A stretch of DNA of 64,000 nucleotides. Source: Albibacterium bauzanense (lineage in GTDB: Bacteria; Bacteroidota; Bacteroidia; Sphingobacteriales; Sphingobacteriaceae). Numbering within the stretch: the stretch's first letter is position 1; each line of letters starts with the position of its first letter. This document shows positions 39,844 through 45,375 of the stretch, piece by piece. The translations under genes were made by a program, and so were the position numbers. A model generated the notes under the pieces. That model had not been told where the DNA came from. It saw only the letters and a program-made list of their open reading frames with translations, and ran no database searches. The DNA lies in NCBI RefSeq assembly GCF_004339765.1, contig NZ_SMGO01000001.1, forward strand, positions 248,001 to 312,000, given 5' to 3'.

Positions 39844-40713
39844 TCACTTTCTTTTATGATACATCTTTATTTGGTAATCATTATATTCCCTTAGTATTTC
39901 GAGCAGATCTGCCATCTTATAGAGAGTTATAAGACTATAGGTATTAAAACGAGACTTTAGCGTATTTGTACTAAATTTCTTACCATCAGCACGACGAACA
40001 AGTTCGCTTATTACCTCAAAAAAGGATTTAAAGGGTATATGGAGTTTTATTATGTTTGTGTTAATGAGCATATTAAACGCATACATCATGACCGCAGAGG
40101 TTCCTATAAGGTTGATAATTCTGGGTATATGGCGATAGCCTGTATGGACAGATTGCATCGCTTGTTCATTTTCACGCTTGGATTGACACTTTAAAATGGA
40201 TATGTGGTTATTAATAGTTGTACCGAGACAATGATTAGCAGATGTGTAAATTATATCCTTTTTGGGTAGATAATGGCTCTCAATCCAATAGCAGTTTAGT
40301 ATATCGTCTTTACTATCAGGGTTATTTTCGATCTCAGAATCTATTTTATTAATATAATATTCAATAATTTGATCTTTATTAAAGTTTATTAAAATAAAAA
40401 AACGCAGCAAGAGCTGTTCTTTAGGTACACTGCTTTCTATCTTTAAAACCTTGATAAGTCGATAGCTAATTATTCGTAAATACATAATGTTTCGTTCGCT
40501 GGGTACTTCCTGGGGTCTCTCATTATTTAGATTAAAATAATAGCTGAGGATGCGAAATAGATCGGAATCAATAGCTGCTTTCTCTAATAAAGCGACAAGC
40601 TTCTTCTTTACTGTTTGTACTTTCTGTATTATTATTGCATTTTCTTTAAGCTCAATGTTAAGCGTACTTTCGCTGTAAGAGTATTCTGAGAATAGGTTGA
40701 TTTTATTTTCCAT
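39844..40713 (-). CDS. Unknown protein paired with an HTH regulator
   Basis: The 289-residue protein is Lys/Glu/Ile-rich, with no signal peptide or TM segment. The C-terminal part (from about 180) has IPRIINLIGTSAVMMYAFN, FKSFFEVISELVRRADGKKF, and a closing RFNTYSLITLYKMADLLEIL. Its start overlaps the end of the excisionase-like HTH gene by 11 bp, so the two are translationally coupled. In Bacteroidota, HTH/RteC pairs from conjugative elements have a similar layout, but I cannot see enough RteC sequence to name it so. Confidence 0.6.
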   Translation of the reverse strand: MENKINLFSEYSYSESTLNIELKENAIIIQKVQTVKKKLVALLEKAAIDSDLFRILSYYFNLNNERPQEVPSERNIMYLRIISYRLIKVLKIESSVPKEQLLLRFFILINFNKDQIIEYYINKIDSEIENNPDSKDDILNCYWIESHYLPKKDIIYTSANHCLGTTINNHISILKCQSKRENEQAMQSVHTGYRHIPRIINLIGTSAVMMYAFNMLINTNIIKLHIPFKSFFEVISELVRRADGKKFSTNTLKSRFNTYSLITLYKMADLLEILREYNDYQIKMYHKRK

Positions 40714-41050
40714 TATCTCCGCCTCCTTCCTTCTTTTTTATTGGGCCAGTTCTGTAATTTCGATCAAGAAACTTTTTAATGTCGCTTTCAAAGAAAACAT
40801 GACGATTGCCGATTCTGCTGCAGGGAATATGTCCTTCATTTACATAGCGATAGAGGGTAGTTGGACTAAGCCGAAGCTTTTGAGAGAGCTCTTCTATGAA
40901 GATAAGGTCATGCAGCACGGAGACAGGAGCTTTATCTTGTGCTTTTATCTCTTCGATGGTTCTAATAATCTGCTCGTTTGTTTGAAGTAGCTGGTTTAGA
41001 GCTTTTACCAACTTGGATAGTTCATAAGTGAATACATCATCTGTTTTCAT
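40703..41050 (-). CDS. Excisionase-like helix-turn-helix (HTH_17/MerR-type) DNA-binding protein
   Basis: The 115-residue protein has an N-terminal helical segment (likely coiled coil, residues 5-40) followed by FIEELSQKLRLSPTTLYRYV and IPCSRIGNRHVFFESDIKKF, the winged-helix HTH_17 pattern of excisionases and mobile-element regulators. The tail is basic. It forms an operon with the unknown 289-residue gene and lies downstream of the lysis-like cassette. It may control that cassette or mobility of the island; both are inference. Confidence 0.8.
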   Translation of the reverse strand: MKTDDVFTYELSKLVKALNQLLQTNEQIIRTIEEIKAQDKAPVSVLHDLIFIEELSQKLRLSPTTLYRYVNEGHIPCSRIGNRHVFFESDIKKFLDRNYRTGPIKKKEGGGDNGK

Positions 41051-41175: not shown

Positions 41176-41679
41176 CTATCTTTTGTTCCTTTTGAGTTTG
41201 TATGCAAGGAGAAGGGGAGATAGGATAGCAATTAGTACCAATAGTATGAGCCATTTTAATGGGATAGATGGAGAGCGTTCTTTTTCATGCTGCAGATTGC
41301 TTTGTTCTTGATGGATACTAAGCTCTTGCTGTTGACGGTTATGATTGCTTTCTTGTTCTTTGTTTGAAAGGACTTGATGGTTTGTAGCTGTTTGCTGTTT
41401 TAGCTCACTGAAGATGATACTGCCTTTGCTTAACTGAAAACCACCGTTGGGTTGATAGCTGATTGTTGAATCGGAATGGATAAGGGTAGTGCTGTAATGA
41501 AGCTGTTCTATCCATGATTGAAGCCATTGGCTTGCCTCAAGGCTAAGGTGGCTGTCATGGCTTTCTAAACTTGTAATTCCTGCTGTTTGCGCCGACTGCT
41601 GTAAGCTTTGTTTTTTATGGAGGCTTGCACAGCTAAGAATTAGGAGGCTGCTGATTAGTAGGAAGGGTATTCTTTTCAT
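41176..41679 (-). CDS. Lipoprotein with C-terminal TM segment, u-spanin topology
   Basis: The 167-residue protein has a lipoprotein signal (MKRIPFLLISSLLILSCAS, lipobox ILSC with Cys17), a long Gln/His/Ser-rich helical middle (about 20-135) and a C-terminal TM helix (KWLILLVLIAILSPLLLAY, about 142-160) with a basic tail KLKRNKR. An outer-membrane lipid anchor plus an inner-membrane TM helix is exactly the layout of unimolecular spanins such as phage T1 gp11, which fuse inner and outer membranes at lysis. It lies 6 bp after the endolysin gene. There is no sequence family match I recognise; the call is by topology and context. Confidence 0.65.
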   Translation of the reverse strand: MKRIPFLLISSLLILSCASLHKKQSLQQSAQTAGITSLESHDSHLSLEASQWLQSWIEQLHYSTTLIHSDSTISYQPNGGFQLSKGSIIFSELKQQTATNHQVLSNKEQESNHNRQQQELSIHQEQSNLQHEKERSPSIPLKWLILLVLIAILSPLLLAYKLKRNKR

Positions 41680-41685
41680 GATGAT

Positions 41686-42267
41686 TTATTTTAGGGGTGT
41701 GATCCAATCTGATACTTGAAAGATGCTGCTAATGGGTCTTCTTTTTCGATACACGCCATCGCCTTCGCGGCTATTGGCATCGTTTGTATTTCCTTCGACC
41801 GTGATTACATATTTATCGCCCCATTCGTCTACAAAGCCTGCATGAGCGATGCGCTTTAAGTTGGAATAATAAATTCCGAAAACATCTCCTGCTTGAGGAA
41901 TGGGCTTGTTTTGATTCTTTCGCCAGATGATTCGTTTGTTGGGAAATAGGGAAGGAGACCAGGCTGTTTTTGGTTCTTTTAGTCCTGCCTGGCCAAACGA
42001 CCAGGAAACGAAGGCTGCGCACCAGGCATAGCCTTCGTTTAAACCTGTGTATTTTAGATATTCACCAACTCGTTCGCCATCGTTCTTATTGCTTTTCTCG
42101 CGTACTCCGATTTCTTGTGTATAAATTGTACGGATCTGGGCTCGCTGCTGTTCTGGCAGGTTGGTGGCCTCTGTTTGAGCTTGTATTACATAAAAGCTGC
42201 TGTTGCTAATATGAAGGCATAGAAAACTGCCAAATAGAAGGAGAAGTAGATCAATACTTTTTGCCAT
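41686..42267 (-). CDS. Exported CHAP/NlpC-like peptidase, endolysin-like
   Basis: The 193-residue protein has a signal sequence (residues 1-31, ending VIQAQ) and a TIGR02594/CHAP-type amidase or endopeptidase domain. The catalytic set is Cys83 (YAWCAAFVSW), His142 (RIAHAGFV) and Glu158/Asn160 (TVEGNT). KRKRRPISSIFQVSDW-like sequence near the end is typical of CHAP lysins. It should cut peptidoglycan peptides in the periplasm. Its first 27 codons overlap the end of the holin-like gene in another frame by 82 bp, and no other start removes the overlap. Confidence 0.8.
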   Translation of the reverse strand: MAKSIDLLLLLFGSFLCLHISNSSFYVIQAQTEATNLPEQQRAQIRTIYTQEIGVREKSNKNDGERVGEYLKYTGLNEGYAWCAAFVSWSFGQAGLKEPKTAWSPSLFPNKRIIWRKNQNKPIPQAGDVFGIYYSNLKRIAHAGFVDEWGDKYVITVEGNTNDANSREGDGVYRKRRPISSIFQVSDWITPLK

Positions 42268-42560
42268 GATAGTAGGGATTTAAAGGTTCTTTCTAAAAAA
42301 ATGTGTTGATATTCATTCAATACAGGCCATTGCCAGGCGATCATCCATCCGGTTAAAATCATAAAGGATATAACGGTGATGGCTGATAGGGGTATGACTG
42401 CCAGTACGCCCAGATCAATGGGAGCTGCTGTGATGTCTATCCTCCGGATGGTATCGCCAAAAAAGATGAATACAAGGATGGATAATACCAGCATTAAACT
42501 GAGCTTGTGCTGATTGAAGAAGTAGTTGAACTGATCGAAAACTGTTTGGATGTGATTCAT
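42186..42560 (-). CDS. Three-TM holin-like membrane protein
   Basis: The 124-residue protein has three hydrophobic helices (about residues 20-36, 50-76 and 98-123), a short soluble N-terminus and a very short C-terminal tail. Size and topology resemble class I holins. It lies between DUF6266 and the endolysin-like gene and overlaps the latter by 82 bp. Both overlapping frames encode hydrophobic segments here (its TM3 and the endolysin signal peptide). No holin family is recognised by sequence. Confidence 0.6.
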   Translation of the reverse strand: MNHIQTVFDQFNYFFNQHKLSLMLVLSILVFIFFGDTIRRIDITAAPIDLGVLAVIPLSAITVISFMILTGWMIAWQWPVLNEYQHIFLERTFKSLLSWQKVLIYFSFYLAVFYAFILATAAFM

Positions 42561-42654
42561 GATGATTGGGTGCTAAAGTGAATGGATTTGGGGTTAGAGC
42601 TTGTTTAGAGCGGGAAATTATGGAGGACCTCTTGCGAGATCCTCCATATGGATG

Positions 42655-43287
42655 TTACAAGAGTGTAAGCGACCCGAAGTAACTGCTGTTTGAGCGTTTT
42701 GATCCATCGCTGGAACTTACTGCGCTCCAAATGTGAAGTTCTCCCTGACCCATGATCTCAGGATTGATAGAGTCTTCACCATCCTCGCGAATAGCATCTT
42801 GATACAGGAAGTAATCTTTTGTTGCTTCGTTGTACATGATGAAATAAACCAGATCATCTGCTTCGGACGATAATGGGTTGACGGTAGGATCCCACGTGAT
42901 ATCCAGATCTCCATCCAGGTTCTTAGTAACCAAAGGTGAGATGGTTTTTAGTGAGCCCTTTGAAAGTCTCACATCATCATACGGAATGCTGAAGTCTGGA
43001 TATTGTCCTTCGACTTTTGGCAGCAAGTGCCTTACTGCCCGGTTAAAGGCTGTCATCTTTCGCTCTTGGGAATCGTTGTATCCCATGTTTATAAAGCTTC
43101 GCAAGGGGTTGAGGAATTCAATAACTAAAGCAAACTTTGACCGATGTGCGATTTGCTTAGCTGTTGCTGCTTTCTTTGACGGTTTAGGAAGCGACCTTAA
43201 GTAGTCGATAGAACGCCAATTAGATCCTACAACGTTTCCAAGCTTCCCTGAGAATGAGCCCAATGCTCCTTTTACATAAATTGCCAT
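42655..43287 (-). CDS. DUF6266 family protein
   Basis: The 210-residue protein starts with the family signature KGALGSFSGKLGNVVGSNWR and YLRSLPKPSKKAATAKQIAH, then FALVIEFLNPLRSF. The C-terminal half is beta-like, with acidic DLDITWDPTVNPL and a Ser-rich end. Function is not described as far as I know. There is no signal peptide, so it would need another exit route. It is first in a four-gene minus-strand cassette with holin-, endolysin- and spanin-like genes, and is a candidate cargo of that set. Base composition here looks more GC-rich than the glycan loci. Confidence 0.88.
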   Translation of the reverse strand: MAIYVKGALGSFSGKLGNVVGSNWRSIDYLRSLPKPSKKAATAKQIAHRSKFALVIEFLNPLRSFINMGYNDSQERKMTAFNRAVRHLLPKVEGQYPDFSIPYDDVRLSKGSLKTISPLVTKNLDGDLDITWDPTVNPLSSEADDLVYFIMYNEATKDYFLYQDAIREDGEDSINPEIMGQGELHIWSAVSSSDGSKRSNSSYFGSLTLL

Positions 43288-43644
43288 TTTCTTAAAATTA
43301 AAAGGTGAATAAAACTGTTAATTGAATGAGCAACCGGTTTGCAATCATTGGGAACAAACATATCGTAGGGTACTGCCCTCTAAAACTTATTGGGAATATT
43401 GCTTGCTAAAGGGCTTATTTGATTAATGGTATTTGATTGATTTCGAAACTTGTGCTTAGAAAGGCTTTGATTGAACAGGAGAAGGTTAGTGGGTTTGGGT
43501 GAATGGGAGTAGGTGAGGGGGAAATTTGGAGGAGAGAGGTTTTATTAGTTATAATGAAATGCTCAAGAGGAAAGAAAGCTATATTGGTAGAATGAAATAT
43601 TCAGATGGAGAATGAGGGGCTTTATTTTTATACAGAAAGAATAT
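43288..43644 (-). other. 357-bp gap between hipA and DUF6266
   Basis: It contains the cassette promoter described separately. The part next to hipA (43440-43640) is purine-rich on the plus strand, with repeated GGAG/GGGT runs and no open frame. Nothing else is recognisable. Confidence 0.5.
43355..43379 (-). promoter_or_regulatory. Candidate promoter with palindrome, lysis-like cassette
   Basis: On the minus strand TATGTTTG (43362-43355) is a perfect TAnnTTTG -7 box, 67 bases before the DUF6266 start. Directly upstream is AGGGTACTGCCCT (plus strand 43367-43379), 4-bp arms around a 5-base centre, in the place of the promoter spacer. A protein bound there would block or control transcription of the whole cassette. 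Confidence 0.45.
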
Positions 43645-44892
43645 TTAAACCTTAAAGGCGGCTGCCATTAGTATTTGTTCACTACGAGATATTCCAATAC
43701 CCTTTGCTATTTCCCGCCAACTAGATACAGCATTTTTCACTTCTTCTATTATTTCGTTCATCTTTTTCTCACTCAACCTACAATGAACACCAATGCTCTT
43801 GGCAAGATTGATGTCTAATAGATTGTTTTCTGTATCAATATTTAATGCCAAGCCTCCTTTGTCTATAGAAGGGTTTATATCAAAAGCAGGAGATAAGCGC
43901 CAACCTTCATTTGTAAGTATAAAACCATGATTTCTTAAATGATCATCAGTATTAGAAATTAGTATATTAAAAATAATTCTTCTCCAAAGTTGTTGTAGAT
44001 CATCATCTATATGCACTCCAGAAAATTGAATAAATTCTATAATATTCAAATATGAAGGTGTAGTATTACGAATGAGTTCTTCATTATTTCCGGTCATAGT
44101 CATTGCAGAAGCGAAATGAACCCTAGCCTCCTTATCTCTATCGAACCGTTTAGTAAAAAAAGTATAATGAGCTCCAGCGACATGTTCTATTTTTGATTCT
44201 GTCATAACAATACCCGCATTGACAGCAAGGCGATATGCCAAATATTCCCATGCACCTTTATTTATAGCATTATCATTCTTTGAAGGAAACTTAGCAATCC
44301 AAGGGTGACTATCATTATCCAAAATATTAGCTTTAGGTCTAGCTCCTCCAAGCGAGGAACCTGGAGCCATCAATATAGCAAGCCATTTGTTTATTTCGAT
44401 CGAATCGATATCAGATTCAATCATTTTTGCGCCATACTGTAATTCTCTAATACTTGCCCAAGGAGGAGTAGGTGAAACCGAATCGTTATTAAGGAAATCT
44501 CCATCAGGTTCTTTCTTAAATCTTAAAGCCCCCATTCTGCTTAAATCATGGACTCCCAAAAGAAAGTCAATATCATATAAAGTAGGTGCTGTTTCTCCCC
44601 GTTCATGTGCAATAAAAGCAGCTCGCCGTTTCATTAAAGTTCTTCCCCAAGTATCTGGCATGGAGTCCATAAATACACCAAAGTTTTCTTTTTTATTGGG
44701 ATATTGTTGTCCACTATACCATTCAATATCAGGATCAAGTAACATTTGCTCATGAGAAATTATCCAGTCCTTATCGTAGGAAAAACTAAATGCTTTTCTT
44801 CCTTTAGCATGGTGGGCAGATAATACCCCAATACATTTAGGAGAATCCATACCTTTCCAATCTGCGTAAACCCATATATCTGTCTTTGCCAT
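43645..44892 (-). CDS. hipA: HipA-family serine/threonine kinase toxin
   Basis: The 415-residue protein is of the usual HipA length. It has the N-terminal HipA_N region (YADWKGMDSPKCIGVLSA, FMDSMPDTWGR), a P-loop segment SSLGGARPKANI (about 179-190), WIAKFPS (Lys201), TFFTKRFDR, the catalytic ISNTDDHLRNHGF (Asp316) and LSPAFDINPS (Asp338, metal site). HipA inactivates GltX by phosphorylation in E. coli and triggers dormancy. It lies 3 bp after hipB, and all key kinase residues are intact, so it should be active. Confidence 0.92.
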   Translation of the reverse strand: MAKTDIWVYADWKGMDSPKCIGVLSAHHAKGRKAFSFSYDKDWIISHEQMLLDPDIEWYSGQQYPNKKENFGVFMDSMPDTWGRTLMKRRAAFIAHERGETAPTLYDIDFLLGVHDLSRMGALRFKKEPDGDFLNNDSVSPTPPWASIRELQYGAKMIESDIDSIEINKWLAILMAPGSSLGGARPKANILDNDSHPWIAKFPSKNDNAINKGAWEYLAYRLAVNAGIVMTESKIEHVAGAHYTFFTKRFDRDKEARVHFASAMTMTGNNEELIRNTTPSYLNIIEFIQFSGVHIDDDLQQLWRRIIFNILISNTDDHLRNHGFILTNEGWRLSPAFDINPSIDKGGLALNIDTENNLLDINLAKSIGVHCRLSEKKMNEIIEEVKNAVSSWREIAKGIGISRSEQILMAAAFKV

Positions 44893-44895
44893 CTT

Positions 44896-45189
44896 TTATT
44901 TTCCCATTAGACTAAGATCTTGTAATTTCCTTCCAAACTCATCGTCTGTTGCCACTTTTAAAAAATCATCATGAAGTCCTAATACTCTAAGTACATTAAA
45001 ATATGCACCCATTGATACACTAGGATTCCCTTTTTCAATATAATATAATGTAGAACGATCAATACCCGCTCGTTCTGACACTTGTATGGTAGTTAGTTTA
45101 CGTCGTTTCCTAGCTAATTTGATGTTTTCTCCCACTTGTTCTAATTCTTTCTGATACTTAGGAAGCAGGATTTGTTTCTTCAACTTCAT
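44896..45189 (-). CDS. hipB: HipB-family antitoxin and autorepressor
   Basis: I start at 45189 (MKLKKQILLPKYQ), giving 97 residues; a start 30 codons upstream would add a hydrophobic segment foreign to the family and cover the operator region. The XRE-type helix-turn-helix spans about 18-75 (NIKLARKRRKLTTIQVSERA, DRSTLYYIEKGN). HipB neutralises HipA and represses the operon. The short spacing to hipA is normal. Confidence 0.88.
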   Translation of the reverse strand: MKLKKQILLPKYQKELEQVGENIKLARKRRKLTTIQVSERAGIDRSTLYYIEKGNPSVSMGAYFNVLRVLGLHDDFLKVATDDEFGRKLQDLSLMGK

Positions 45190-45191
45190 AA

Positions 45192-45244
45192 TATGTTGTT
45201 TATTATCTACAATAATAGCAATTTTGATTGAAATATACAACATA
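45192..45244. promoter_or_regulatory. Candidate hipBA operator (8-bp inverted repeat)
   Basis: TATGTTGT (45192-45199) and ACAACATA (45237-45244) are perfect inverted copies separated by 37 bases, immediately upstream of the hipB start. Two half-sites flanking a promoter would fit autorepression by a HipB dimer pair. No canonical HipB operator (TATCC-N8-GGATA) was seen. Confidence 0.35.
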
Positions 45245-45375
45245 AAGATAATAGAGAGGTAGCTATCCGATTGTAACAATTATCTCTACGTATAAAACAA
45301 TTTCGTATTTAAACAGTATTTTAATAAAATAAACAAAAGTTAAATACCTAAATACTAATTATATATGAATGAATT

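Follow-up and report, generated by a model that had tools for sequence, protein, structure and literature searches.

Organization of the locus

Our analysis concerns a cluster of four genes on the minus strand of a 64,000-nucleotide stretch of the Albibacterium bauzanense genome (C1:248001-312000, where C1 is contig NZ_SMGO01000001.1; hereafter the window), which belongs to a genome of 3.08 Mb in six contigs. Read 5' to 3' on that strand, the genes encode a protein of family DUF6266, a holin-like protein with three transmembrane (TM) segments, a CHAP-type peptidoglycan hydrolase and a lipoprotein with a C-terminal TM helix; genes for an HTH_17 regulator and a 289-residue protein follow (Table 1). 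The genome has three DUF6266 genes, a single member of the holin-like family and a single member of the CHAP family. We describe the cluster as a lysis cassette behind DUF6266, its putative passenger.

Table 1. Coordinates of the cassette genes, of associated sequence elements and of related proteins in a phage record. Positions are those of the window, except in the last row.
Feature	Position	Strand	Basis
DUF6266 protein, putative passenger	42655..43287	minus	PF19781, 113.8 bits; structure model; adjacency to lysis genes
Three-TM holin-like protein, 124 aa	42186..42560	minus	Structure model, pLDDT 90.4; beside CHAP in phages; sole copy in genome
Reading-frame overlap of holin-like and CHAP genes, 82 nt	42186..42267	minus	Kept in most phage and bacterial homologues
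CHAP peptidoglycan hydrolase (putative endolysin) with N-terminal hydrophobic segment, 193 aa	41686..42267	minus	PF05257; PHROG; catalytic residues; sole copy in genome
Lipoprotein with C-terminal TM helix and basic tail, unimolecular-spanin topology, 167 aa	41176..41679	minus	Homologue alignment; hydropathy scans
HTH_17 (excisionase/MerR-like) regulator, probable fifth cassette member	40703..41050	minus	PF12728, 47.8 bits; association counts
289-aa protein, membership uncertain	39844..40713	minus	Overlaps HTH_17 gene by 11 nt
Predicted Bacteroidota -7 promoter box TATGTTTG (TAnnTTTG)	43355..43362	minus	Distance to palindrome; known consensus
Leader inverted repeat AATGAttGCAAACCGGTTGCTCATT centred on ACCGGT, putative operator or leader element	43325..43349	minus	ACCGGT counts
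Terminator-like hairpin TATGGAGGATCTC-GCAA-GAGGTCCTCCATA between DUF6266 and lysis genes	42619..42648	minus	-23.5 kcal/mol, z -6.1
DUF6266-like proteins of phage record OP209177	403-1158, 1996-2604, 2729-3499		Family profile

The putative lysis proteins

The CHAP protein matches PF05257 with 31.8 bits, its top PHROG is an endolysin (5.6e-19), and residues C83, H142 and E158 are invariant across 12 homologues; the cluster thus contains a putative enzyme for the peptidoglycan hydrolase position of a type 10 set. Where an N-terminal hydrophobic segment is present, it holds a cysteine in 20 of 31 cassette sequences and 58 of 80 phage sequences. One may speculate that this residue would suit a membrane-tethered, disulphide-caged endolysin that is freed by depolarization.

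The neighbouring small protein has no match in Pfam, PHROG or NCBIfam. Structure prediction, which the initial annotation of this DNA had proposed, gave an AlphaFold model with long helices at residues 19-41, 52-77 and 98-123, plus shorter ones. Annotated holin families being unmatched, we use the label holin because of the three-TM topology and the position beside CHAP in phages. The overlap of its reading frame with that of the CHAP gene is the same or similar in most homologues, whether from phages or from bacteria.

The lipobox cysteine of the lipoprotein, Cys17, is invariant among 11 homologues, and inspection together with hydropathy scans places a C-terminal hydrophobic segment and a basic tail in all 11, at identities of 15-27%. 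One protein of the lysis cassette therefore combines a lipobox cysteine with a single C-terminal TM segment, which is the topology of the unimolecular spanins, and this topology and the position of the gene are alike in most cassettes. The lipoprotein sequence matches neither a known spanin nor any lysis family in PHROG; topology that outlasts sequence in this way is as expected of a spanin. The periplasmic part has a conserved patch around P77-G80. Taken together, the invariant catalytic residues and a spanin topology kept at such low identity point to selection for function.

The initial annotation, which was made from the sequence alone, had described a four-gene minus-strand set with these topologies, a CHAP-type lysin with Cys83, His142 and Glu158 intact, and a lipoprotein (Cys17) with a C-terminal TM helix whose absence from homologues would have counted against the proposal. 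All four open reading frames (ORFs) are present, the three residues and Cys17 prove invariant, and the helix is kept in every homologue aligned.

The DUF6266 protein

The first gene of the cassette scores far above the curated cut-off of PF19781 (23.4 bits), which places its product in the DUF6266 family. By inspection, the conserved N-terminus is basic and has no hydrophobic segment, in agreement with the earlier statement that the protein carries no signal peptide. In the structure model (pLDDT 85.5) the N-terminal half is helical and the C-terminal half, residues about 111-210, adopts an FN3 fold, with structure matches of Z 9.8-11.0 and root-mean-square deviations of 2.2-2.9 Å over 88-99 residues. 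No solved structure related by sequence to DUF6266 or to the CHAP protein was found, and an open-literature search returned no paper on DUF6266. At some loci the family is present as tandem pairs of divergent sequence. A plasmid-borne origin of the cassette was considered and rejected, as DUF6266 has no plasmid match.

Recurrence of the cassette outside phage genomes

Among 60 related genomes we found 62 DUF6266 loci, 13 of them directly upstream of a holin homologue and 9 directly upstream of a DUF5675 gene. Seen from the lysis side, 13 of the 18 strong holin-like homologues stand directly downstream of DUF6266, far above chance, as do 9 of the 34 DUF5675 genes. A second sample, consisting of the 80 best-scoring genome loci found through the CHAP gene, has DUF6266 just upstream in 35. 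Pedobacter and Olivibacter species are among the relatives that have a cassette. DUF6266 and the lysis genes are thus a real, recurrent unit.

The surroundings of these CHAP loci separate the cassettes from phages. Two or more phage-like ORFs, defined as proteins common to at least three of the viral loci and hence detecting relatives of those phages only, accompany none of the 35 loci with DUF6266 and 13 of the 45 without it; the single phage-like matches in four DUF6266 loci are frames antisense to CHAP. Conversely, DUF6266 is absent from all 82 viral loci found for the CHAP/holin family, most or nearly all of which carry the holin-CHAP pair with the same reading-frame overlap. At the window itself, inspection of the ORFs and PHROG scans of those neighbouring the cassette recognized no phage gene, and profile searches for PF05065 (HK97 capsid) and PF03237 (Terminase_6) gave zero matches across the genome; with these searches, and in the window and its relatives, no capsid, portal, terminase or tail genes were found near the cassette, which places the cluster outside a bacteriophage, as the type 10 definition asks. 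The initial annotation had likewise reported no phage gene nearby and had suggested a count of DUF6266 neighbours, in which confinement of the four genes to intact prophages, or a lack of any co-occurrence with the lysis genes, would have told against it. The counts give neither outcome, and the co-occurrence lies away from phage genes.

These data bear directly on the reading of the cluster as a prophage remnant, that is, a decayed lysis module lying by chance next to DUF6266. The holin-CHAP pair, often with the lipoprotein, is indeed a common phage lysis module among IMG/VR contigs, and in a quick tree of CHAP sequences the DUF6266 rows fall in separated groups interleaved among phage rows, with weak support for the deep branches, so that we claim no number of capture events. 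On the other hand, no ORF is disrupted and the catalytic residues are all in place, many species have this gene order away from any phage gene, and the units share a leader and an associated regulator that phages lack. We regard a remnant as very improbable and reject it on the neighbourhood statistics.

What the locus has in common with that of a congener is limited to the genes of the cassette and a weak match to the HTH gene, and the two congeners have the cassette at different sites. Because these two genomes share the cassette alone while the flanks differ, its genes appear to travel as a block.

As a separate observation, Aquimarina, Fulvivirga, Marivirga and Nafulsella have a conserved operon in which the holin-CHAP pair is joined by genes for a 'KPGSVRL' protein, a one-TM protein and a 227-residue protein. 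Their CHAP sequences form a single clade (support 100), and the operon may be a small integrated element.

Leader, hairpin and associated regulator

Promoters of Bacteroidota have a -7 box of consensus TAnnTTTG. A predicted box of this kind precedes the DUF6266 gene, and its TTTG lies 23 nt from the centre of the ACCGGT palindrome, within the 22-26 nt measured in 17 of 20 loci. ACCGGT occurs within 150 nt upstream of 22 of 37 holin-linked, 3 of 6 DUF5675-linked and 6 of 29 unlinked DUF6266 genes, as compared with 4.1% of random 150-mers, and by inspection some linked genes have a different palindrome at the same position. The pattern of box plus ACCGGT has one match in the whole genome, at the cassette, against 8 for a backwards control pattern. 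Exact mirror symmetry of the repeat is limited to about 10 bp, and the outer arms are not significant by the folding energy of the leader RNA.

A different kind of repeat was seen upstream of many DUF6266 genes: degenerate direct-repeat arrays with a period of 10-11 bp, at about 60-390 nt, the unit of which differs per locus and is often then inverted. They reach z above 5 in 51 of 81 DUF6266 upstream regions and in 30 of 404 random windows; both DUF6266 genes that lie elsewhere in this genome have them, and the cassette in the window does not.

Between DUF6266 and the lysis genes lies a terminator-like hairpin, which separates the putative passenger from the genes that would release it. Hairpins with z below -2 stand directly behind the first of two DUF6266 genes in 6 of 6 cases and behind 66% of other cassette DUF6266 genes, whereas the figures are 9% behind holin and 14% behind CHAP genes; they are also found behind many unlinked DUF6266 genes. 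In colicin operons the passenger comes first and is followed by a hairpin and the gene for a small lysis lipoprotein. The shared order of passenger, hairpin and lysis genes, together with the tandem divergent DUF6266 pairs and their diversity from locus to locus, would fit a colicin-like bacteriocin operon, in which DUF6266 is antibacterial, is freed by its own lysis genes and is accompanied by a divergent second copy as immunity protein or partner. However, neither Pfam and NCBIfam searches nor structure comparison found a toxin domain or toxin-like fold in DUF6266, the C-terminal half of which is FN3, no immunity-type gene is common to the loci, and a second DUF6266 copy is present in only some of them. 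This makes a bacteriocin operon distinctly unlikely in our view.

Behind the lipoprotein gene, an HTH_17 homologue is found within 4 kb in 32 of 44 DUF6266 cassettes, in 7 of 10 cassettes with an alternative passenger and in 7 of 31 DUF6266 loci without holin, but in 0 of 78 viral contigs and 0 of 13 prophages, a few of the counted loci having also supplied seed sequences. We would guess that this protein binds the ACCGGT palindrome. The gene for the 289-residue protein has no homologue listed in 40 relative loci; its product has no Pfam or NCBIfam match, and its best PHROG value is 0.006. On the upstream side of the cassette, inspection shows HipA and HTH genes and then ordinary metabolic genes, and the opposite flank is a polysaccharide gene cluster. 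The HipA-like kinase gene and its HTH partner (window positions 43645-45279) lie immediately upstream of the cassette and are absent from that of the congener.

The HTH_17 gene also matches the defence model mad1 weakly (29.8 bits). A defence system was considered and rejected, since this weak match to a mad1-type HTH stands alone and the other cassette genes match no defence family. The match and the HipA gene upstream could be brought forward for a role in wall remodelling or programmed cell death, such as DNA release in biofilms or abortive infection, with DUF6266 as a regulator or antiholin, to which its basic conserved N-terminus might be suited. Yet DUF6266 is often alone, with a hairpin end of its own, the remaining genes are without defence family matches, and an unrelated protein can take its place, as described below; we hold such a role to be rather unlikely.

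The hairpin, the promoter-ACCGGT leader and the HTH_17 association, and with them the DUF5675 and FN3 variants considered next, are new with respect to the initial annotation.

Alternative passengers and a second module

In ten CHAP loci from Parapedobacter, Sphingobacterium and bacterium A37T11, DUF6266 is replaced by a protein of about 210 residues with an FN3-like C-terminus, whose gene lies either ahead of the holin gene or in between those for CHAP and the lipoprotein. Profile comparison detected no homology between this protein and DUF6266; a common ancestry of the two was accordingly set aside, and their FN3-like ends may be convergence. That two unrelated proteins occupy comparable slots argues for a passenger role over that of a structural part of the lysis machine. 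Of the 21 holin-family matches in the genome of bacterium A37T11, several belong to cassettes that carry the FN3 passenger, and one to a cassette with DUF6266.

DUF5675 corresponds to PHROG 1501, a phage protein family of unknown function. At four loci with DUF6266 followed by DUF5675, a one-TM coiled-coil protein and a small two-TM protein come next in most. Because it is a phage family with small membrane proteins behind it in several loci, DUF5675 looks like part of a second lysis-type module behind DUF6266.

A possible viral origin of DUF6266

Three proteins that resemble DUF6266, with family-profile scores of 74.7, 41.7 and 22.1 bits, are encoded in phage record OP209177 (8038 bp). This record also has genes for a rolling-circle Rep (PF23343, 35.4 bits), a CHAP endolysin and a protein resembling a fibre; no recognizable capsid gene was found in it. 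In a viral structure library, moreover, the top match of DUF6266 is an unclassified 'virus sp.' protein (probability 1.00, TMq 0.54). With the different cassette sites in the two congeners, these matches raise the possibility that DUF6266 is of viral origin and has a structural or adhesive function. The cassette would then be what is left of a small element resembling a single-stranded DNA phage, with a virion protein and lysis genes, which releases particles or still moves as a satellite. OP209177 is, however, a single record, and no relative was returned when its Rep and its DUF6266-like proteins were searched against viral contigs and phage records, so that the lead is thin. Nor was a Rep recognized in the relative neighbourhoods inspected, and the viral loci of the CHAP/holin family are all without DUF6266. 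A scan of viral contigs with DUF6266 itself also gave no relative, which is a weak test as its patterns came from one sequence. We consider this origin unlikely. A broader version, in which a virus-derived DUF6266 was paired with captured phage lysis modules and passengers and modules were then swapped, giving widespread passenger-specific release and possibly assembled particles, seems doubtful to us as well.

A model for lytic release of DUF6266

Because a phage-free lysis set recurs across related species behind DUF6266, our analysis suggests that these bacteria use sacrificial lysis to free this protein. We propose, with a probability of roughly 0.55, that in this cluster a phage lysis cassette has been domesticated and operates in the manner of a lytic type 10 secretion system, with a dedicated, co-transcribed passenger.

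In the model that we infer from the gene content, the HTH_17 regulator and the ACCGGT leader would respond to a signal, and the promoter upstream of DUF6266 would fire, probably in a minority of cells. DUF6266 would build up as a soluble cytoplasmic protein, while the hairpin would pass only part of transcription into the lysis genes, giving high levels of passenger and low levels of lysis proteins, as in colicin operons. On reaching a threshold, the three-TM holin may permeabilize or depolarize the inner membrane; the CHAP hydrolase, with an export or anchor segment of its own at the N-terminus, would then cut the wall, and the lipoprotein would fuse inner and outer membranes in the manner of a unimolecular spanin. 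The cell would open and DUF6266 would be freed, and DUF6266 made from the two other genes of this genome could exit in trans.

Several observations weigh against this proposal. Neither lysis module is adjacent to 40 of the 62 DUF6266 loci in the 60 relatives, which means that release must often be in trans or that DUF6266 has another role; at the same time, comparison of the cassette with the two other DUF6266 genes of the genome found no word of at least 9 nt common to three of the six genes compared, and co-regulation in trans is thus unsupported here. Of the 37 holin-linked DUF6266 genes, 15 lack ACCGGT or have another sequence in its place, and the outer arms of the leader repeat are weakly supported (arms of at least 5 in 75% of loci, against 35% of mismatched pairs). 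The hairpin in this cassette has no strong T tract and was not flagged by a terminator scan, so that it may simply mark a 3' end. Among the families searched, none with an annotation is related to the holin-like family, and the CHAP-anchored loci were selected by score rather than at random. Finally, lysis, the release of DUF6266 and release as its purpose are deduced from the genes and their arrangement.

If the model is correct, the occurrence of the cassette across Sphingobacteriaceae extends lytic protein release to another phylum, DUF6266 gains a testable function, and genome mining becomes a way to ask which proteins justify the death of a cell. The holin-CHAP pair, with its versions in phages and in bacteria, also provides a natural comparison for the domestication of a phage module.

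Comparison with known lysis and release systems

The few described cases of type 10 secretion come mainly from enterobacteria. In the published model, a holin, an endolysin and a spanin encoded outside phage lyse a few cells in a controlled manner and thereby free cytoplasmic proteins without signal peptides (PMC10847048). The cassette resembles the clusters of Serratia marcescens (ChiWXYZ, SmaLC) and Yersinia entomophaga (YenLC) in having genes for a putative holin, a hydrolase and a putative spanin outside phage, and a candidate passenger without signal peptide (PMC10847048). It differs from them in its phylum, in a CHAP cysteine hydrolase where they have a PepB/ChiX endopeptidase, and in one lipoprotein of unimolecular-spanin topology where they have an Rz/Rz1 pair; the passenger gene, furthermore, lies here behind the same predicted promoter and is accompanied by an HTH_17 regulator. 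The type 10-like reading of the initial annotation is well supported in gene content and genomic context, while its functional part is unproven, and the cassette is best filed as type 10-like, with a unimolecular-spanin-type lipoprotein and a built-in passenger, rather than as a proven member of the class.

The lysis modules of Bacteroidota phages in IMG/VR have a homologous holin and CHAP protein with the same frame overlap, and often the lipoprotein too, but lack DUF6266 and have no HTH_17 gene of the cassette family within 4 kb. With the unimolecular spanins of the phage T1 gp11 type (reviewed in PMC6139136), the lipoprotein shares an N-terminal lipobox and a C-terminal TM segment with a basic tail; it differs in matching no PHROG lysis family and in its own conserved periplasmic patch. 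Colicin operons have the same order of passenger, hairpin and lysis function as the cassette, which is set apart from them by a complete predicted three-part lysis set and in that no toxin or immunity domain was recognized.

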